Shown here one piece after another: positions 22,855 through 46,830 of a stretch of DNA of 64,000 nucleotides. Source of the DNA: Calothrix sp. NIES-4101. GTDB lineage: Bacteria; Cyanobacteriota; Cyanobacteriia; Cyanobacteriales; Nostocaceae. How positions within the stretch are numbered: the first letter of the stretch is position 1; each line of letters opens with the position of its first letter. The DNA lies in contig AP018280.1 in the NCBI GenBank assembly GCA_004296455.1, positions 1,612,001 through 1,676,000 on the forward strand, given 5' to 3'. Position numbers and translations under genes: made by a program. A model generated the notes under the pieces. The model was not told the origin of the DNA. It ran no database searches and worked only from the letters and a program-made list of their open reading frames with translations.

Positions 22855-25491
22855 CTAGACAATAATCATCCACATACTAATTCCCAAAGCAATTATGCTT
22901 AGATTTTGTAACCACAAACTACGTAAAGATTGCCGAGTAATTTTCTGAGTTAATATCACAGCAAATAAAATAGCAAAAATTAAAGTAATTGCTTGTAAAA
23001 AACTAATTACCGCAGGATGCGCTACCCATAGAGGCAGATAACCTCCATTTAACCCAAAAGTTGCAAAAGTCACAGGTAAAATTCGTCCACCTTCACCTAA
23101 TGCTAATCGCAAATAATGAGCTAAATTTCCTCCCAATACTAATGGTAAATAGCCATAAGCCAATTCCACGAATTTTTTCGGCTTCATAATTTTATCTCTA
23201 GTAATACCAATCGCAACTAATTCTGCATCAGTATGAATCTGTATACCCTGCCGTCTCAGACTATTATTTCTATCTTTGATTTGATTCTGCAACCAGCAAA
23301 ACCCCAACATCAAAGCATAAGCGATAAAAGGTATACTTACCGGAATCAGTAAGGCAAGTAAAGATAGTTCTAAATGCTGCCAAAAATCAGTTAAATCAAA
23401 ATTTAAACCAAAATTTAAACCTAACCAAATCTGTATTTCTGGTAGGCGATGGAGAAATACACCACCCAAAAGTAAAAATAATAAGGCAACTTCATAACTT
23501 TGGGGGACATGTGTTGTCCACAGTTCTATTCCCGGAGGACGTAAGTTAAATTCTACTGAACGATGTGGACAAGCTTTCAAACAAGTCATACACAAAACAC
23601 AATCGCGGTTATCTTCCAACTGTGCGGGGTGAGAATACAAAGGACAACCATTTGTTTCCATTCCCTCACCTTTAGCGACTCCACCTTTATAACATTGATA
23701 AGTAGTACAAGTTGCCGAACAAATTCCTTGTTGTGCCCTTAATTCAGTCATAGATAACTTGGCGAATAACCCATTCATCCCACCAATAGGGCATAAATAT
23801 CGACACCAAAATCTTCGTTCAAAAATTAGCGAAAATATAACGGCACCAGCCGTAATTAATAACAGCAAACATCCAGAAAGATAAGCAGTATTTTCTAAAT
23901 TCCAGAGTTCTTCCCACAAAAAAATTAAACTAAACAAACCAAATAAAAACCAGCCACCCCATTTTTCCGCTTTTTCACGTGGCCATTTTTTTAATTGCCG
24001 AGGAAATAATTTTAAAGAAAGTTTCTGAGTAATTTCCCCATAAATCATAAACGGACAAAAGGCACACCAAATCCGTCCTAAAAAGGGAAAAAGGAATAGA
24101 AAACCAGCCCACCACCAATCCCAAAATATATTTAAAACAAAGTTTTTATCCCTGGTTTGGGGTCCAATAAATAAAACTGCAATAATAAAAGCAAATGCAA
24201 CTGTAGTTACACCATAATTAATTCGATCTGGATACCAATTACTACGTAAAAATCTCCGTAATCCTGGATAAAGATTCAATAAATTAACGCGAAATCGTTT
24301 TTTCTTAGTTTCTGCTGCCCAAAAAATTTCTTCGCTAAGTTCTTTCGCATTTTCAGCTTGGACTATTGCCCGTTCGACAAGACTTTTTAACTCCTTTAAA
24401 TTCCCAGGAAAATCATAGGATTGTAAACGGCGTAATGCTTCTGGTGTCAACTGCGGTTTTTGTAGTCCACGATAAAGAGTATATAAACTAATATAATATT
24501 TAATCTGCGCCTGAATATCTGCTTTTCGGACTCGCAAAGGTGGCACTTTGATCACATGTTCAACACTACGTTCAACTAGAGAAATTGCCTTTTCCGAGAC
24601 AATAATAATGCGGGCATGGCTAATGCGAGATATGGGAATATCTGCTTCGCTTCGATGAACGGGTGTAAATGTATTTGTTTGTAATAAATTTATAATTTTA
24701 GGTAATAATTCCTGGGGTAATTCCTGAATGTTATTGAGAATTAAAGTTCCATTCCCCACATATTCCAAAAGCCCAGGTTTTCCGCCAACTCTGCCAAACA
24801 AATCTGCCCCGCTAGTTTGTAGAATCCCACAGTTAACTTTAATAATTGGTTCGCGACGGGAAGTAGAACCATAATGAATTAAAGCAGCAATATTATCTTT
24901 CTCTAAACCAGGTTCGCCAAAAATTAACACAGACTTGCGAGTATTTGTAGCTTCACGGATTTGTTCGCGTAATTTCATGGCATAGCGGCTTGAACCAACT
25001 ATACCCCGTTGCGCTTTAGTCACAAGATAGGGACGCAATTCTAAAGAACGTTCTTGCTCGTAGGTAAAGGCTGATGCGAGTTGTGCAATTTCTGCTGCGA
25101 GCAAACGAGATACAAATTGAGCAATTTCTGGATATTGGTTGGTGATTTGGCTGAATTTTTTTGCCGAAACAACCCATAAATGGCATTCCGTCAGGGTTTT
25201 AATTGTACTTGGTGTCGCTTCATTTAAAAGTAACTCTTTGAGATTAATTGCAGTACCGGGGAGCAAACCACAACATAAAGCTGGATTTTTAGGGTTGGCA
25301 CTAGTCGCTTCGATACGTCCTTGCTTGATGATATAAAGCGCTTCCGGTAGACTTCCTTCTGTGACTATTTGCGTATCTGGGGGTACAATTGTTTCCGTAA
25401 TCGCAGATGCGATCGCACCTAACACTTCATCTGACAAAATGCCTAAAGTCGTGCGTTCCTGTAGCCAAATTACCCTATCTGGAGATGTCAC
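22855..25491 (-). CDS. Fusion: cNMP-binding domain + degenerate sigma-54-activator-like AAA+ + membrane iron-sulfur protein (NapH/NosR-like)
   Basis: An 878-aa three-part protein. Residues 20-135 resemble a cyclic-nucleotide-binding domain (PDTQIVTEGSLPEALYIIKQG). Residues 165-385 follow the sigma-54 activator AAA+ fold (MKLREQIREATNTRKSVLIF, then FPGNLKELKSLVERAI). Its Walker A is GEPGLEKD (192-199) and Walker B is GTLILNNIQ, so nucleotide-handling residues are lost; the GAFTGA loop is absent and no DNA-binding HTH follows. From about 425 onward there are several membrane helices with C476/C479 (WCAFCP), WCRYLCP, and ferredoxin-like CSATC...CYKGG and CVLCMTCLKACP clusters. It is probably a membrane redox sensor or electron-transfer protein rather than a transcription activator. 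The next gene on this strand is sbcC, 400 bases away. Confidence 0.85.
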   Translation of the reverse strand: MTSPDRVIWLQERTTLGILSDEVLGAIASAITETIVPPDTQIVTEGSLPEALYIIKQGRIEATSANPKNPALCCGLLPGTAINLKELLLNEATPSTIKTLTECHLWVVSAKKFSQITNQYPEIAQFVSRLLAAEIAQLASAFTYEQERSLELRPYLVTKAQRGIVGSSRYAMKLREQIREATNTRKSVLIFGEPGLEKDNIAALIHYGSTSRREPIIKVNCGILQTSGADLFGRVGGKPGLLEYVGNGTLILNNIQELPQELLPKIINLLQTNTFTPVHRSEADIPISRISHARIIIVSEKAISLVERSVEHVIKVPPLRVRKADIQAQIKYYISLYTLYRGLQKPQLTPEALRRLQSYDFPGNLKELKSLVERAIVQAENAKELSEEIFWAAETKKKRFRVNLLNLYPGLRRFLRSNWYPDRINYGVTTVAFAFIIAVLFIGPQTRDKNFVLNIFWDWWWAGFLFLFPFLGRIWCAFCPFMIYGEITQKLSLKLFPRQLKKWPREKAEKWGGWFLFGLFSLIFLWEELWNLENTAYLSGCLLLLITAGAVIFSLIFERRFWCRYLCPIGGMNGLFAKLSMTELRAQQGICSATCTTYQCYKGGVAKGEGMETNGCPLYSHPAQLEDNRDCVLCMTCLKACPHRSVEFNLRPPGIELWTTHVPQSYEVALLFLLLGGVFLHRLPEIQIWLGLNFGLNFDLTDFWQHLELSLLALLIPVSIPFIAYALMLGFCWLQNQIKDRNNSLRRQGIQIHTDAELVAIGITRDKIMKPKKFVELAYGYLPLVLGGNLAHYLRLALGEGGRILPVTFATFGLNGGYLPLWVAHPAVISFLQAITLIFAILFAVILTQKITRQSLRSLWLQNLSIIALGISMWMIIV

Positions 25492-38281: not shown

Positions 38282-39772
38282 CTATTCCCCACTTGCCAAA
38301 ATCGGTAGTACTACAGTAAATGTCGTTCCCTGCTCCAAAACACTTTCCACATGAATTTGACCTTGATGATTTTCAACGATCGCTCTGGCGATCGCTAATC
38401 CCAATCCGGAGCCAGTCGTCTTCTCTGTGGCTTTATCTGGGGAAGAATGAGTACGTGCGGGATCGACTCGATAGAAGCGATCAAATAATTTCGGTAATGA
38501 TTCAGCCGGAATCCCAATACCACTATCACTAATTTTTACTTGTAATTGCGGAGTCACATAGCCGAACCCCGAAACTCGATAAATTGCCTCAAACCTTTTT
38601 AATTCAACATTTACATGACCGCGATCGCGCGTGTAACGTAAGGCATTGCCAATTAAATTAGTAAATAATCTGACTAACTGATTCCAATCACCAGTTAGTG
38701 TAAACCAGTTTTCCAACAACTCTAGATTTGTCTCTGTTGCCGGTGGATCAATTAATTCCAAGGACAGCATAATATTTTTTGCTGCCGCAAATAATTGCTG
38801 TTCTTCCACCACCTCCATTAATAAAGCATCGAGGGGACATAGTGAAAAGCTTTCCTGAGCAATGCCACTATCTTGTCTTGCTAAAAACAACAAATCGTTG
38901 ACAAGCTTTCCCAAACGCTGGGTTAATCGTTCCACTATCTGCAACTGCTGTCGGTAATGCGAAGCTGTAACAGTGCTTGTCTCACTCGCTTCTAAGGATT
39001 CTAAATCGGCAAGTGCGACCTGGACATTAGTTTGAATCAAAGCAATGGGACTCCGCAATTCATGGGAAGCATCTGCTGTAAACTGCTTGAGACGCTGATA
39101 TGACTGATGTACAGGTTCCATCGCCTTACCGGAAAGAAACCAGCCACTCGCAGCCACAGAAAGCACCATTAATCCAGTTCCCAAAGCCAAATCAACAATC
39201 AGCTGTCGGCTGGGTTTTGTCACCTCAAACCAAGGATGACTCACCCGCAAATATCCCAAAACCTGCCGCCCAATTTCTACCCGTTGTGTAACTTGGCGAA
39301 GTATTAAAGGAGAAAAATCTTGATGCTCATATTTATTTTCTTCCCTACCTTCCAAATCTCCCCAACTTCCCGCGCCATCTTCTTCCCTAACAACACGAAC
39401 CGTCTCCCCATTGAGGTTGGAATCAATCGGAATATTAATTGGTTCGGCAAAAGTTGACCAAAGTAAATCACCTGTAGAACTAAACCATTCAATATCAATG
39501 CGATCATCTTCTACTGTATTGGCATTGTTGCGAAAACTGGCTTCGATATTAATTCGGTATTGCTTCGCCTCAGATGTTACGGAAACATTCACCGGCTCAA
39601 TTACAAGCGATCGCTCCACAACTTCCACCACATGATTGAGAGTATCGTCTATGCGCTCAATTAAAGTATTACGAACGTACAAATACACACCGCAGGCAAA
39701 TAACAATAGCAACACAGCTGTAATTGCCGTATACCAAAGCGCCAGACGACGACGAGTAGCTTGAAACATCAA
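38282..39772 (-). CDS. Sensor histidine kinase
   Basis: A 496-aa membrane kinase. TM1 spans about 11-32 and TM2 about 191-213, leaving a sensor region of some 155 residues outside the cytoplasm. The HisKA site is H237 (FTADASHELRSPIALIQ), followed by the N box (LVRLFTNLIGNALRYT), G1 (KISDSGIGI), F box and G2 (GSGLGLAIARAIVENH). There is no HAMP of normal length between TM2 and HisKA. No response regulator gene is adjacent in this window; the region upstream is a long gap. The architecture resembles cyanobacterial RppB/NrsS-type kinases, but I do not assign the symbol. A start at the second Met (39769) is equally possible. Confidence 0.92.
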   Translation of the reverse strand: MMFQATRRRLALWYTAITAVLLLLFACGVYLYVRNTLIERIDDTLNHVVEVVERSLVIEPVNVSVTSEAKQYRINIEASFRNNANTVEDDRIDIEWFSSTGDLLWSTFAEPINIPIDSNLNGETVRVVREEDGAGSWGDLEGREENKYEHQDFSPLILRQVTQRVEIGRQVLGYLRVSHPWFEVTKPSRQLIVDLALGTGLMVLSVAASGWFLSGKAMEPVHQSYQRLKQFTADASHELRSPIALIQTNVQVALADLESLEASETSTVTASHYRQQLQIVERLTQRLGKLVNDLLFLARQDSGIAQESFSLCPLDALLMEVVEEQQLFAAAKNIMLSLELIDPPATETNLELLENWFTLTGDWNQLVRLFTNLIGNALRYTRDRGHVNVELKRFEAIYRVSGFGYVTPQLQVKISDSGIGIPAESLPKLFDRFYRVDPARTHSSPDKATEKTTGSGLGLAIARAIVENHQGQIHVESVLEQGTTFTVVLPILASGE

Positions 39773-40581: not shown

Positions 40582-41169
40582 ATGAATAAGAAGATTTTGG
40601 GCATCATTGCCGCAGGTGCAGCAGCATTAAGCAGCGCTATTTTCACAGCACCCGCAAATGCAGTTCAGCAAGACGTAAATGTAGAAGTTACCATCCAACC
40701 TGGAATCTACCTACGTACATTTGAAAACGTGAAGTTGCAAATCACTCAGGGCGACTTGGGCGCAACACAAGAAAAAGATTTTAATCCTGGTGCTCCTGAT
40801 ACAGACGGTACTACCAAGTTGACATTGACTCCACGTCCTGCGATAGGCTCAGGAACTCAGACCACAGTCACCAAGAAAGTGGATGAATTGTTCGCAGTTT
40901 GGTCGAATAGTGGTAAACCAGTTAACGTTACCGTGACTCCAGTTGCTAACAGCGCTGCTGGTCTTCCCAAAGCTACCGTCTTAACAAATACTGCTGATCC
41001 AGGTAGTGAAATCGTACTTACAAACGTAACTGTCAATAATGGTACTGGAACGCCTACAGCTTCAGTTCCCATTGTTGGCGGTGTTGATTTGGAATTTGAT
41101 GTTAGTGCTGCAAGTGCTGGTGTTCACACTGGTGGTAAGTTGACTGTTGAAGCTTTGGCTCAACTCTAA
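40582..41169 (+). CDS. Secreted fimbrial-subunit-like protein (putative major pilin)
   Basis: A 195-aa protein with a clear Sec signal peptide (KKILGIIAAGAAALSSAIFT, cut after ANA). The mature start, VQQDVNVEVTIQPGIYLR, alternates hydrophobic residues and then has a Pro, like the donor strand of CFA/I-type (alternate chaperone-usher) major pilins. The rest is beta-rich, has no cysteine, and ends SAGVHTGGKLTVEALAQL, a GxHxGxL-type terminal strand shared with the next gene. It is the first of four same-strand genes that include a PapD-like chaperone and an usher. The pilin role is inferred from context plus these features. AGGAG lies 11 bases upstream. Confidence 0.65.
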   Translation: MNKKILGIIAAGAAALSSAIFTAPANAVQQDVNVEVTIQPGIYLRTFENVKLQITQGDLGATQEKDFNPGAPDTDGTTKLTLTPRPAIGSGTQTTVTKKVDELFAVWSNSGKPVNVTVTPVANSAAGLPKATVLTNTADPGSEIVLTNVTVNNGTGTPTASVPIVGGVDLEFDVSAASAGVHTGGKLTVEALAQL

Positions 41170-41566
41170 TTTTGTATCCAAATAGAGTACCAATAGATAG
41201 CTCACTTTAAGTCATCATAATTTCTGGTGCAGGCATTGTGCCTGCTTCCAGTCCCCAAATATCAACTATATTCATTTGCTTGGCTTTTGTTTTTATTTTG
41301 CTTTTAAAGTTTTTTATGTGTGTTTTTAAAAGCCAAAAGTCAATTGTTAAAATTTTACTCAATTTGCAATTCAGCAGATATAACAGATAAGACATTATTG
41401 TGAGTTATAAATAATTCGGAGCTAACAGGAGTTATTAATCAAAAAGAAGCGTGACCCGACAAAAAGTAATTATGAGGTCTAAACAAAGTCTATGATTTTG
41501 ATTTTTAACTCGATTAATTTACATTTAACTCCTGTCAAAAAATATCGTTTTGCCAGTGTGAGGATA
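41170..41566. other. Intergenic region within the fimbrial-like locus
   Basis: About 400 bases, AT-rich. GCAGGCA-TTG-TGCCTGC at 41229-41245 forms a perfect 7-bp hairpin 60 bases after the pilin-like stop and may terminate or stabilise that transcript, allowing higher expression of the major subunit. Confidence 0.45.
41229..41245. terminator. Hairpin after the first pilin-like gene
   Basis: GCAGGCA and TGCCTGC pair perfectly across a TTG loop. No strong T-run follows, so a processing or stabilising hairpin is as likely as a terminator. Confidence 0.4.
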
Positions 41567-42115
41567 ATGAGTTATCAGTGCAAACTATTAAGTTTTTTGG
41601 CGACAGTAATGGTAACCCTAGGTTTGCCATTCATGCCAGTTTTAGCCCAAACAGCTATAACCCCAGAAGAAGATTTAGGGGTAAATGGAATATCACCTAC
41701 TCAGATAACCCTTGACCCAATTAAAGAGATATTTGTTAATTCTAGTGGCTATGCCCAGAATACACAGGAATTATATAAGCAGCCTGATTTAATTCAAAAT
41801 GTGAAGCGTCAAATAAATTGGACAAAGCGGATTCAACTAGACAAAATGGAATTGCCACTAAAAGTTACTTACGAGTTCAAGGATAATAGTGGAACTGCCA
41901 ATCGGTTAAATAATTCAACTACTTCTAATTCTACAATTGGTGTCATTCTTAATCCACTAGAAAGCAATCTTGTTTTTCGTAGTGAAGCCAGGAATGTTGC
42001 AGTAGTGGAAGGACGTGTAGAGTTAACATTAGACCCTAATCAAAGTCACATTGCTGGTGTTCATGGCGGTCGTTTATCGGTATGTATTCAAAGTAAAGAT
42101 GGTGGATGTTTGTAA
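41567..42115 (+). CDS. Secreted fimbrial-subunit-like protein (putative minor subunit)
   Basis: From ATG 41567 the product is 182 aa with a signal peptide (LLSFLATVMVTLGLPFMPVLAQ). An earlier ATG at 41492 would add a 25-residue basic leader. The mature part is beta-rich, with LPLKVTYEFKDNSGTANRLN and GRVELTLDPNQSHIAGVHGG, then RLSVCIQSKDGGCL; two cysteines near the C-terminus could form a small disulfide loop. The AGVHGGRLSV end parallels AGVHTGGKLTV in the previous protein, suggesting related folds. It lies 122 bases before the chaperone gene and is probably a minor or tip subunit of the same fibre. This is inference. Confidence 0.55.
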   Translation: MSYQCKLLSFLATVMVTLGLPFMPVLAQTAITPEEDLGVNGISPTQITLDPIKEIFVNSSGYAQNTQELYKQPDLIQNVKRQINWTKRIQLDKMELPLKVTYEFKDNSGTANRLNNSTTSNSTIGVILNPLESNLVFRSEARNVAVVEGRVELTLDPNQSHIAGVHGGRLSVCIQSKDGGCL

Positions 42116-42237
42116 GCGATTGATTCCGTGAATGATTAGTTGTGAAATTATTTGTAATTACCTAAAACTTCTAATTAACCATTAATAATTATCAAGTACT
42201 TGTGCCAATTAAGTGTGAGAGAGAATCGAGGGTTATA

Positions 42238-43152
42238 ATGCTACAAAAGACAAAAATCATCGCCTTAGGTTTATTAGGTGTATTCACGCAGGGACTTCTA
42301 GGGAATCTGGCACTAGCACCAGCATCAGCACTAGAAATCGGTGTCAGCCCGCCAAAATTTGAAATAGAAATGAATGGTAAAGGGCGATCGCAATCCATCA
42401 AAATCACGAATTTTTCTGCGGAACCTGTAGAAATGCAAGCTTACGTTCGCAATTGGACTCTCAATGAAGAAAGTAAACTGCAAGAGATCCAATCAACCGA
42501 AAATTCCCTAGATCAGTGGATTGTCTTTACTCCCGCCAAATTCACAATTCCCCCACGCAGCTCACAAAGCCTCCGCTTTGCTATCCGTCCCAAAGTTCAA
42601 CCCAAAGAGGGAGAACACCGAGCAGTTATTTACATTGAGGAAGTTTTACCTCAAAGCAAAGAAAACTCGCAGTCAGTTGTGACTATCGGTCGTGTCGGTA
42701 TTGTCGTCTACGGCTATGCTGGTAAAATCAAACGCTCTGGCACTCTTAACTCCATCAATGTAGATGCCAAAGCCAACTCTGTGAACGCTATCTTCGATAT
42801 TTCGAGTACGGGTAACGCCAACATCCGCATGAAGGGACAGTACTCCATCTGGCGGGCAGGAAATTATCCAGGTGCAAAAACAACACAGCAGATACCTGGT
42901 GCTGGTTCCGCAAATGTGAAACTACCTGCAAATGTAGTCGATGCCGGAATTTTGAAAGACACACCTGTTCTTCCGAGCACGCGACGTAAGCTAGTCATGC
43001 CAATAAACAAAAAATTACCACCTGGTAACTACGTTTTGGATATTAACGGTGACTTAAATGGAGTTGCTGTCGATCAAGGTATTCCTTTCACTGTCCCCGC
43101 AACTGGTGCAACTCCAGCAGCGAAAAAGCCCCTAATTCCTCTAAGGAAGTGA
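42238..43152 (+). CDS. PapD-like periplasmic chaperone
   Basis: A 304-aa exported protein: signal peptide (IIALGLLGVFTQGLLGNLAL, cut near ASA), then an Ig-like N-domain. EIGVSPPKFEIEMNGKGRSQ and IVFTPAKFTIPPRSSQSLRF, followed by GEHRAVIYIEEVLP, match the G1/F1 strand layout of fimbrial chaperones, which hold subunits by donor-strand complementation. A second beta domain follows (GTLNSINVDAKANSVNAIFD) and a Lys/Pro tail. ATG 42238 is supported by GAGGG at 42228-42232; the frame is open further upstream. It precedes the usher gene by 139 bases. Relatives occur in archaic and alternate chaperone-usher loci. Confidence 0.72.
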   Translation: MLQKTKIIALGLLGVFTQGLLGNLALAPASALEIGVSPPKFEIEMNGKGRSQSIKITNFSAEPVEMQAYVRNWTLNEESKLQEIQSTENSLDQWIVFTPAKFTIPPRSSQSLRFAIRPKVQPKEGEHRAVIYIEEVLPQSKENSQSVVTIGRVGIVVYGYAGKIKRSGTLNSINVDAKANSVNAIFDISSTGNANIRMKGQYSIWRAGNYPGAKTTQQIPGAGSANVKLPANVVDAGILKDTPVLPSTRRKLVMPINKKLPPGNYVLDINGDLNGVAVDQGIPFTVPATGATPAAKKPLIPLRK

Positions 43153-43290
43153 ACTGTAGTCTTAAATTTTAAACCGAAATCAAAATAGCCAATTTTCTGG
43201 GTAAATTCACAATCCCAAACCTAGAAACGATTTGCTGCCAAATGATATTAAAACTTACCTAACCCTTTTGGGATAACCATTTCAACCTTT

Positions 43291-46200
43291 GTGCTTAGTA
43301 TGCTCTACCTAGCTTTACCACCTGCACCACCCCCAATTGTCGCCACAATTGCACCTGAACAAGCTGCTGGCAAACCACCATCAGTCCAAGTTCCAGTTGT
43401 GAATAAACCGACAAAAAACTCAATTTCAGATAGTGGCAATGCCAGTACAGCAACAACACACTCATTAGAATGTCAGCTATCTGAGTTTAAATCACAGTCT
43501 CAATCTCAAAAACCTAACCTTGCGAATAACCTCTTAGCAAAGATGCTGGCGGCTTCTACCAGTGTGAAAACGCAAGCAACACCTTGTAATTCTCAAAAGC
43601 AAAAGCTGCAAAATCAACAACAAAAATCAGTTAGTAATATTCCTGTTGCTAGTCAAGAGACTGCCTCATTACCAGAAGATACCGATTCACAACAAATCGC
43701 TAGTAATTTAGCATCCAACAAAAGTGCTGAAAAGAATACTATTGGAACTATTTTGGCAGCAGTCCAGCAGTTAATTCAGGTATCCTTGTATGCATCTATT
43801 AACAATACAATTACTGATACTCTGCAAGTAGAAAATTCTCCTTCTACTTCCAACACTATTGCTAGTCAAGCACAAACCGATATAACTTCTAATAATTTAT
43901 CAGTAGCTAATAACGAAAATTCCCAATTAAATACTACAAAAAACAATCAAATTAAGCAAAATATTGAAAAAAATACAGATATTCAAACAGTAGCCAGCAA
44001 TCCCCCTTTTGATGCCACAAAAATCTTAGTACTCGTCCAAGAATTAATCAGCATTTCAATTTCTGCAAGCCTTAATAATAAAATAATTGATACGACTTCT
44101 GCAAATAATAATCCACAAGAAGCACAAAAAATCGCGAGTAATCCTAAACAAGATTTATCGCCAACTATAACAAAAACAAACTCGCAACCCAATTCTCCAA
44201 CGGTAGATAACAGCAAAGTTGCAGCCGCAGGTAATATTATTGATCGACTCAAGCCGAACTCTGATAATCAAATTACTCCAGGTGACTCAACCGCAAACTC
44301 TAAACCTGAAAATTCCCTACAACTCGCTAAATCTCCTGATGAACCATTTCTTGTCGAACTTAGTGTTAATGGTCGAGAAATTGGTACATTAGACGTTATT
44401 TTAGAAAACAAAATCTTACTAGTACCTCTTGATGCCTTTGCGAGACTAACAGGTTTAACTGTTGAAGTGGCAAATGGGAAAACCCAAGTAAAAACACCTT
44501 TAGGGACTGTGCAAATAGCACCGGAGTCTTTAAAGAAAATCAATGGTGTATCTTACATTAGCAGCGCCGAAATGCGCGATAAGCTCAACATCACTATTGA
44601 CTTAAATATTGCCGACCTCACATTACTTGCAGATTTACCTTGGCGCTCACAAAATAGTCAATATCGCCCCAATCAACCTGACTTAAAACCAGATGTATTT
44701 GCACCGCAAAATGGTTTATCTAATCTGCGCCAAGAATTAAACTGGACTAGTGGAGGTGGTGATTCGAGCTTACGCAGTTCCACACGTCTTGGTGGTCGAT
44801 TATTAGGTGGTTCTGTTGGACTTCGTTTTGATAATAACTTTGTTAATAGTCCAGATGTTTCCGAATATTATTTTTATAAGCGAAATGGTAACTTCCGCTA
44901 TCAAATAGGTCGCCAACAATTAGGTTTACATCCATTGTTAAATGGAGTTGATTTAACCGGATTACAATTTGGCTATAGCAATTTACCTCCTGAAAGTTTT
45001 GGTACGAGCTTTAACGCCACTGAACTATTACCTAGAAGGTCGCGCCCTATCCAAACATTTCGTGGTGAAGCTCCTCCTGCAAGTTTTGTACAGTTACGTA
45101 TTGGTGGGGTGATTATAGCCCAACAACAGGTAGGATTTAACGGGATTTATGAGTTTGTTGATGTTAATTTACCAGTCGGTCAAACGAATGAAATTGAACT
45201 TTTGATTTTTGACCGTACGAATCTGCGCGTACCTTCAGAAATACGCACAGTCAGAATTAATGCATCAGATTTATTATTACCTTCAGGGGGAAATATTCAA
45301 CTTGCTGGTTTGGGGATTAGCGGTAATTTAGTCCAAGATCAATTGTTTGGAGAATTTAATTCTGACTACAATGGTAAATTAATGGGCTTTTACCAATTCA
45401 GACAAGGACTATCAAATAACTTAACTTTTGAAGGTTCTCTGCAAGCAATTCCCGATACATTACAATCGCAAGCTGGTTTAGTGTGGCGATTGGCAAATCC
45501 TGTAGTTTTATCTGCCAGTGTTGGTAATTCTTATGATCAAATTGGTTATACGGCTGACTTAGATATTCAACTTGATAAATTAGATATTAATGCCAATTCT
45601 CAATCATTACCAAGAGGATATCGTACAGGAAAAAGAGAAAGTTTTGAGCGTTTCAATCACAGTCTAGAACTTAAGTATCGTTTCAGTAATAAATTCAATT
45701 TAGGATTTATTGCTCGCAATCGCCAAGATGATACAAGTACAGCTAGTTATATCTTACCTACCTTTACTTTAAGACCTTTTTCCACTGTATCTTTGAACGG
45801 TAGACCTGATATTGATGGTAGATATTTATTTAATGCTTTCTATCAACCAAATTGGGCAACTCGCCTTTCATTTAACACCTATGGTGATGCCTATCTTTCA
45901 GACTTAAGTTATAAGTTTAAAAATGACTATCAGGTGTCTGCGGGAACCGAGTTTGGGGCTGGTTCTGCTCCACGCTACACTTTAGGTTTTGGTTACTTTC
46001 CTAATAGCCTCAGACAGTTAAGTTGGAACCTGGGATTAGCGCTGCGAGATGGTGAAGTTGCCCCCCTGGCTGGTGCCAGTATGCAAGTATTACCTGGTTT
46101 GTTGGCAAGAGTCGAATATCAAGGTATTCCCTCAAGAGCAACTAGCGGAAACTTTGGTGGTTTTGGTAGCGATCGCCTGAGCCTGACACTAGTATCCGAT

Positions 46201-46830
46201 TTATCCTTTGCCCGGGGTCAGATTGCACCTGCCAGTTATACAGGTATTACGAAAGAACGTGGTGCGATCGCCGGACGAATTAAAGTCGAAGGTGCTAAAG
46301 GTGATTTTGATTTGAGTGGCTCAAATGTCCGTATTATCAATAAAAAGGGCGAAGTTTTCGGTTCTGCTAGAACTGATTTGAAAGGCAACTTCTTTGTTGG
46401 TGGTTTACCCGAAGGTAACTATATAGTCGAACTTGAGCCGGACGAATTACCCATTGAACTCTCCGTACCAAAAACAAGTATGGTAGCACAAGTCGCCAAT
46501 TCAGCCGTTACACGCTTAGATTTCCCAGTTCGGGCAGAGTTTGGTGTTGCTGGACGTGTTACAGATGTTGCAGGGCAGCCAATGGCACAAGTCAAGGTGG
46601 AATTGATTAACTCTAGTGGTGCGAGAATTTTATCGGGTATCACCGATAGATTTGGTTTGTACCGTCTGGATGGGGTTCCGGTTGGTCAATACATGTTGCG
46701 CGTTTCTAACCAAGATACACTTAATCGCAACGACTCACTTCCGAAACGGAAAATTGAGATTCGCAACGAGTTTGTTTATAATCAGAATTTACAATTACCT
46801 GTTTCTGCGGCTGCGAAAAAAAATAATTAG
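43291..46830 (+). CDS. Outer-membrane usher-like protein
   Basis: A 1,179-aa protein from GTG 43291. Residues 40-345 are Asn/Gln/Ser/Thr-rich and contain a repeat pair (153-198 and 243-289). Residues 352-450 resemble usher N-terminal domains (FLVELSVNGREIGTLDVILE, ILLVPLDAFARLTGLTV). From about 470 to 985 come barrel-like beta strands, interrupted at 590-658 by a plug-like module (RGEAPPASFVQLRIGGVIIA, EFVDVNLPVGQTNEIELLIF). Residues 990-1165 form two carboxypeptidase-regulatory-like Ig domains (ARTDLKGNFFVGGLPEGNYI; ITDRFGLYRLDGVPVGQYML). Ushers thread chaperone-bound subunits through the outer membrane. The GTG start gives only a weak signal peptide, so the true start may differ. Confidence 0.72.
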   Translation: MLSMLYLALPPAPPPIVATIAPEQAAGKPPSVQVPVVNKPTKNSISDSGNASTATTHSLECQLSEFKSQSQSQKPNLANNLLAKMLAASTSVKTQATPCNSQKQKLQNQQQKSVSNIPVASQETASLPEDTDSQQIASNLASNKSAEKNTIGTILAAVQQLIQVSLYASINNTITDTLQVENSPSTSNTIASQAQTDITSNNLSVANNENSQLNTTKNNQIKQNIEKNTDIQTVASNPPFDATKILVLVQELISISISASLNNKIIDTTSANNNPQEAQKIASNPKQDLSPTITKTNSQPNSPTVDNSKVAAAGNIIDRLKPNSDNQITPGDSTANSKPENSLQLAKSPDEPFLVELSVNGREIGTLDVILENKILLVPLDAFARLTGLTVEVANGKTQVKTPLGTVQIAPESLKKINGVSYISSAEMRDKLNITIDLNIADLTLLADLPWRSQNSQYRPNQPDLKPDVFAPQNGLSNLRQELNWTSGGGDSSLRSSTRLGGRLLGGSVGLRFDNNFVNSPDVSEYYFYKRNGNFRYQIGRQQLGLHPLLNGVDLTGLQFGYSNLPPESFGTSFNATELLPRRSRPIQTFRGEAPPASFVQLRIGGVIIAQQQVGFNGIYEFVDVNLPVGQTNEIELLIFDRTNLRVPSEIRTVRINASDLLLPSGGNIQLAGLGISGNLVQDQLFGEFNSDYNGKLMGFYQFRQGLSNNLTFEGSLQAIPDTLQSQAGLVWRLANPVVLSASVGNSYDQIGYTADLDIQLDKLDINANSQSLPRGYRTGKRESFERFNHSLELKYRFSNKFNLGFIARNRQDDTSTASYILPTFTLRPFSTVSLNGRPDIDGRYLFNAFYQPNWATRLSFNTYGDAYLSDLSYKFKNDYQVSAGTEFGAGSAPRYTLGFGYFPNSLRQLSWNLGLALRDGEVAPLAGASMQVLPGLLARVEYQGIPSRATSGNFGGFGSDRLSLTLVSDLSFARGQIAPASYTGITKERGAIAGRIKVEGAKGDFDLSGSNVRIINKKGEVFGSARTDLKGNFFVGGLPEGNYIVELEPDELPIELSVPKTSMVAQVANSAVTRLDFPVRAEFGVAGRVTDVAGQPMAQVKVELINSSGARILSGITDRFGLYRLDGVPVGQYMLRVSNQDTLNRNDSLPKRKIEIRNEFVYNQNLQLPVSAAAKKNN

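Follow-up and report, generated by a model that had tools for sequence, protein, structure and literature searches.

The chaperone–usher systems reported from cyanobacteria are of the archaic (sigma) kind (PMC4390875, PMC4654587). Their loci encode SCPU pilins, a PapD chaperone and a PF00577 usher (PMC4390875), and the cyanobacterial chaperone–usher genes in print are either of this SCPU/PF00345/PF00577 kind or carry a FimC/FimD-type annotation (PMC4390875, PMC5853447, PMC7005997); in Synechocystis, loss of ushA leaves both flocculation and motility intact (PMC6755745). The Csu pilin domain contains invariant cysteines, and chaperones possess an invariant proline that is accompanied, only in the archaic and alternate clades, by an arginine (CsuC Pro59/Arg89, EcpB Pro60/Arg89), the alternate systems being described as restricted to beta- and gamma-proteobacteria (PMC4654587). 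Here we describe a four-gene locus at 40582..46830 of a 64 000-nucleotide stretch (hereafter the window; contig positions 1612001-1676000) of the 7.6-Mb genome of Calothrix sp. NIES-4101, which is very probably a complete chaperone–usher operon of non-classical type and which, by the sequence tests run, appears to fit no described clade. The published cyanobacterial survey relied on the PF00577, PF00345 and PF05229 models (PMC4390875), so that loci of this type would escape it, and we found no recognisable description of such a locus in open-licence PMC papers, judged by their titles and abstract openings.

Gene order and conservation of the locus

The four open reading frames all lie on the + strand in the order subunit 1 (40582..41169), subunit 2 (41567..42115), chaperone (42238..43152) and usher (43300..46830), as a preliminary description of this DNA had stated. 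The start of subunit 2 was moved to the ATG at 41567 and that of the chaperone to the ATG at 42238, homologs beginning at residues 26 and 13, respectively, of the listed frames; for the usher, ATG 43300 is the likeliest start and GTG 43291 the alternative. One scan of genome contigs returned 59 loci, and because 55 of these keep the four genes in the same order, the locus is not a chance assembly. The 55 include two with a doubled subunit 1 gene, two from a single genome (Mastigocoleus testarum BC008) and one with its usher frame in three pieces, through sequencing error or decay (L062:8883-12494, from a Calothrix metagenome-assembled genome); the other four comprise a partial usher (L105), a Chlorobiaceae contig with another gene order (L114) and two loci without recognised genes (L115 and L116).

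The window's genome holds a second complete operon (type B; L007:3538-9403, at about 313.5-319.4 kb of the same contig), which lies downstream of a gene for a large RTX-repeat protein and encodes an usher 57% identical to that of the window. A third system (type C; L008:5937-12534, contig position about 296-302.5 kb) is more distant: its usher, of 977 residues, has a plain signal peptide and is 27% identical to the window usher over part of its length, PapD_N matches neither of its two PapD-like proteins at E up to 1, and one small exported protein was found there. Type-C relatives are spread over several genomes from this family, and some of their ushers match CooC_C weakly. On the Chlorobiaceae contig, only 6.5 kb long, the stretch L114:1-3770 encodes a related usher, of which the C-terminal half is present (28% identity), together with a DUF4402 protein and a PapD_N-like protein that narrowly misses the cut-off; this locus differs from that of the window in its subunit family as well as its gene order. 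DUF4402 proteins may be the pilins of a wider chaperone–usher group; the model also matched three of 32 subunit 2 rows (best E 0.032), which is suggestive yet weak.

The chaperone

PapD_N matched the window chaperone with 31.8 bits (E 1.5e-7; cut-off 23) and 31 of 32 homologs at E up to 1, which bears out, for the D1 half, the fold of two immunoglobulin (Ig)-like domains expected of the PapD-like chaperone proposed earlier; none of the Pfam D2 models matched the window chaperone or its homologs. Pro99 and Arg128 (numbered from ATG 42238) are kept in all 57 rows of an alignment of the window, its paralog and the 55 loci, and Pro60/Arg89 of EcpB fall on them in hhalign. In the joint chaperone alignment, FimC has leucine at the position of Arg128; the chaperone thus carries in D1 the proline and diagnostic arginine that mark the non-classical (archaic and alternate) systems. 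Tyr265 is likewise kept in 57 of 57 rows and may be a second anchor for the subunit C-terminus.

The usher core

The AlphaFold2 model of the usher, of middling quality, consists of an N-terminal domain (NTD)-like part (44347..44649, model residues 5-105), a beta-barrel (44713..46212, residues 127-626) with 26 strand segments outside an inserted domain, that inserted domain (45049..45255, residues 239-307), which is plug-like by its position and modelled with low confidence (block predicted local distance difference test, pLDDT, about 40-68), and two C-terminal beta-sandwich domains, CTD1 and CTD2 (46261..46797), which Pfam matches as CarboxypepD_reg and SpaA. In fold searches with this model, ushers occupied the first 15 VIA rows and the first 16 Foldseek ranks; several of the matches run from the barrel to the C-terminus, and two take in the NTD as well, a domain covered by two of 50 VIA rows and hence weakly tested. 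Within the limits of a middling model and a low-confidence plug, the large protein therefore models as an usher, as had been proposed, rather than as another outer-membrane barrel. In a PDB profile search, the usher alignment matched only Ig/prealbumin-like domains, in its C-terminal part, and one short stretch of a biofilm surface protein.

The subunits

Subunit 1, likely the major pilin, has a signal peptide, a short donor-strand-like N-terminus (DVNVEVTIQPGIYL) and a single Ig-like domain whose predicted model (pLDDT 89) has a pilin-like fold. Subunit 2 is its distant paralog (hhalign probability 93.9%, E 1.5e-7, 96 columns), and a role at the tip or as a minor component is a guess. The locus thus has the Ig-like pilin subunits of the chaperone–usher superfamily. 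Pfam gave only scattered weak matches on the alignments of subunits 1 and 2 (32 rows each), and PDB profile searches with the alignments of both subunits and the chaperone gave nothing useful.

Proposed mechanism and product

We propose that both subunits and the chaperone would enter the periplasm via Sec, where the chaperone would hold each subunit by donor-strand complementation, Arg128 (perhaps also Tyr265) gripping the subunit C-terminus, and would pass it on to the NTD of the usher. The plug-gated barrel would then polymerise the subunits by donor-strand exchange and extrude a thin surface fibre, mostly of subunit 1, with subunit 2 as a minor, perhaps terminal, component. Secretion, donor-strand exchange, the formation of a fibre, the part that each subunit plays and any effect on adhesion or biofilm are inferred. 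If fibres are indeed made, they would constitute a surface organelle of Nostocales distinct from both type IV pili and SCPU pili.

The alternative that survives best, although we consider it unlikely, is that the machinery is real but builds a surface layer or sheath coat of non-fimbrial kind instead of a pilus. Such systems can build a capsule or spore coat (PMC7005997), and the long, variable usher extension described below might serve a thick envelope; no sequence feature separates the two products, the donor-strand-like N-terminus of subunit 1 being suited to linear polymers of either kind.

Relationship to the described clades

The usher model, the PapD_N domain, the conserved arginine and proline, the pilin-like fold of the subunit 1 model and the conserved gene order support the core of the preliminary description, namely a non-classical chaperone–usher locus for a fibre. 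Its narrower assignment to an archaic/alternate clade stands only in part: the invariant arginine makes the locus non-classical, and PapD_N is over its cut-off in the profile searches it had suggested, but these gave neither the archaic markers PF00577 and SCPU nor the alternate markers CooC_C (PF15976) and TcfC (PF16967). Classical type 1 (Fim) pili share the usher architecture and, by model, the pilin fold, but FimC has leucine in place of the arginine, and ushers of the present type matched none of PF00577, PapC_N and PapC_C.

It seems to us improbable that the locus arose by strong divergence from the archaic systems known in cyanobacteria. Those systems (Csu; Synechocystis cccSP with slr0019/ushA) share with it Ig-like subunits, a PapD-type chaperone with the non-classical arginine, an usher and an occurrence in cyanobacteria, from which theirs is the kind reported (PMC4390875, PMC4654587). 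In hhalign, moreover, the chaperone profile aligned best with that of type C (99.5%) and then with those of chaperones encoded next to PF00577 ushers of cyanobacteria (97.6% and 96.8%). However, PF00577 matched none of 12 ushers of the window and type-B kind (A/B-type), and no PF00577 usher was found in the window's genome, although 15 of 244 sampled cyanobacterial genomes have one over the cut-off. SCPU (PF05229) was likewise unmatched in the 32 rows of each subunit, and both subunits gave hhalign probabilities of only 0.1-18.5% with the pilins beside PF00577 ushers, compared with 67.3% between the two known sets. The chaperones, too, are grouped apart, for a 19-row tree, whose branches are very long and which backs the groups and not their branching order, places the A/B chaperones, those of type C and two PF00577-linked sets in one group each.

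The archaic-type invariant pilin cysteines are absent from subunit 1, which has no cysteine in any of its 32 rows. We had considered this a strong argument against an archaic origin, but the test separates little, because pilins beside some cyanobacterial PF00577 ushers are also free of cysteine. At five such loci (L149-L153), all seven small exported proteins beside the usher lack cysteine outside the signal peptide, whereas their counterparts at L156-L158 contain it. The former thus lack the pilin cysteines of Csu-type archaic systems, and at least two types of PF00577-linked pilin exist in cyanobacteria.

Less probable again is a place, as a diverged branch, in the alternate (alpha, CFA/I- and ECP-like) clade. 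Like the locus, alternate systems (ECP EcpA-E, CFA/I) have the non-classical chaperone arginine and an usher without PF00577, as our control with Escherichia coli EcpC confirmed; CfaB is the best Foldseek match of the cysteine-free subunit 1, and a single-sequence PDB search with the chaperone found CfaA (8e-4) and then EcpB (0.3). The same control, however, scored far over the cut-off for both CooC_C and TcfC, whereas none of the 12 A/B-type ushers matched either model at E up to 1, and the pilins had no match to the MatB model. The VIA rows for the subunit 1 model tie classical, archaic and alternate pilins, and EcpB, which scored 47% against the chaperone profile (FimC 1.6%; hhalign, each a single sequence), stands outside the A/B group in the chaperone tree, on a very long branch. 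Weak CooC_C matches in four of 20 ushers were at first taken to point to the alternate clade, a reading since dropped: none of the 12 A/B-type ushers matched when scanned alone, and the four therefore belong to type-C ushers. Should the locus turn out to be alternate-like, or to form a separate clade, the described confinement of non-archaic systems to beta- and gamma-proteobacteria (PMC4654587) would need revision.

That the large protein is a receptor, porin or other outer-membrane barrel beside an unrelated PapD-like protein is very hard to reconcile with the leading place of ushers in both fold searches and with the chaperone and pilin genes to which it is linked in 55 of 59 loci.

The N-terminus and start region of the usher

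Outer-membrane ushers in general carry a Sec signal peptide. A simple heuristic found signal peptides in 56 of 57 subunit 1 proteins, 51 of 55 subunit 2 proteins, 53 of 55 chaperones and only four of 54 ushers, the window usher and its paralog being among those without one; this result is only indicative, because the heuristic also misses three of nine type-C and four of 12 PF00577 ushers. When all in-frame start codons were scanned with generous settings, candidates came up in four of the 54 (L066, L087, L101 and L109), and the usher of L101, among the most divergent at 51% identity, has a plain signal peptide. A signal peptide hidden in another frame was sought in all three + frames, over the stretch between the end of the chaperone gene and a point about 780 bases inside the usher, and rejected, candidates being scattered over some loci and none consistent.

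What precedes the core is instead a long extension (43300..44334 in the window) with the start MLYLALPPAPPPIV, a low-complexity linker and two copies of a VQxLIxxSxxASxNN-like motif, spotted by eye in the window and by pattern in its relatives, several Calothrix-type ushers having two copies in the form VQELISxSxxASxNN. In the 43 ushers where a simple pattern located the core boundary, the extension ranges from 68 to 638 residues and is rich in Ser, Thr, Asn and Ala. Of 55 ushers, 34 begin with the pattern M..PPxP and 49 with a looser proline-rich start.

The conservation extends to the nucleotides. In the window, the stretch 43288..43322 (+ strand) consists of TTTGTGCTTA, a short gap and ATGCTCTACCTAGCTTTACCACC; across many genomes, the first element lies upstream of the usher start at a varying distance and is followed by the second with near-fixed third positions. 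At codons 2, 3 and 5-8 of 27 ushers picked for a similar start, the share of the modal codon was 0.81-1.00 (mean 0.91), compared with 0.84 in the best six-column run of the usher core, the codon window having been chosen after looking. With up to three mismatches allowed, the stretch matches a single place in the genome. An overlapping reading frame was rejected as the cause of the synonymous conservation, such frames being interrupted by stops, that of the window included.

It is conceivable, but we hold it to be doubtful and less probable than either clade assignment above, that these ushers are a separate, unrecognised clade exported without a conventional Sec signal peptide, in which the M[LIF]YxxxPPxPP-like start and the long, low-complexity, motif-bearing extension replace it and tether the usher to, or span, the thick cyanobacterial envelope. 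For the operon as a whole, which we continue to read as a non-classical chaperone–usher system, the apparent lack of a signal peptide on the usher is the feature that most deserves testing.

Distribution and genomic context

All the loci are cyanobacterial by title save the Chlorobiaceae contig, and their named genera we take to be Nostocales. The closest named matches are Calothrix-type cyanobacteria, the nearest, Calothrix elsteri, being Brunnivagina elsteri (Calotrichaceae, Nostocales) in the NCBI taxonomy. Near-full-length matches were found in 13 of 386 sampled cyanobacterial genomes, all in the family to which that collection assigns the window's genome, with partial matches only in 16 more, and a scan of viral contigs gave no confirmed relative.

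A divergent histidine kinase gene, identified by Pfam (38282..39772, − strand), lies beside the operon, and a relative of it adjoins 49 of the 55 loci (66-81% identity), which makes it a conserved neighbour. Downstream, 45 of 55 loci have a gene of one family, identified from one member as polyphosphate kinase (ppk); in the window's genome, the histidine kinase still adjoins the operon and ppk lies elsewhere. We examined this site in nine relatives without a close operon match. In six (G005, G007, G009, G013, G015 and G016), the histidine kinase and ppk genes are divergent neighbours separated by 0.2-1.8 kb of DNA that holds no operon, two of the six having small open reading frames of 96-118 codons in the gap; in G019 they are far apart, in G003 they lie on different contigs, and in G008 other genes occupy the site. 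The operon therefore resembles an accessory cassette with a preferred location, since this site often holds it yet is empty in some relatives, through gain or loss; if fibres are made, the occupied and empty sites offer natural comparisons for adhesion, mat or filament behaviour. The G008 site itself (L179:3316-8487) encodes two small exported-looking proteins and, on the opposite strand, a 986-residue protein that matches none of four usher profiles.

Elsewhere, Rfam at gathering thresholds gave no match in the window, promoter and terminator scans gave no signal above shuffled sequences, and an NCBIfam search gave nothing close to a cut-off. Away from the operon, at 22855-25491, the window encodes a single protein of 878 residues that unites cNMP-binding, sigma-54-activator-type AAA+ and 4Fe-4S (Fer4_5) domains, an unusual combination.
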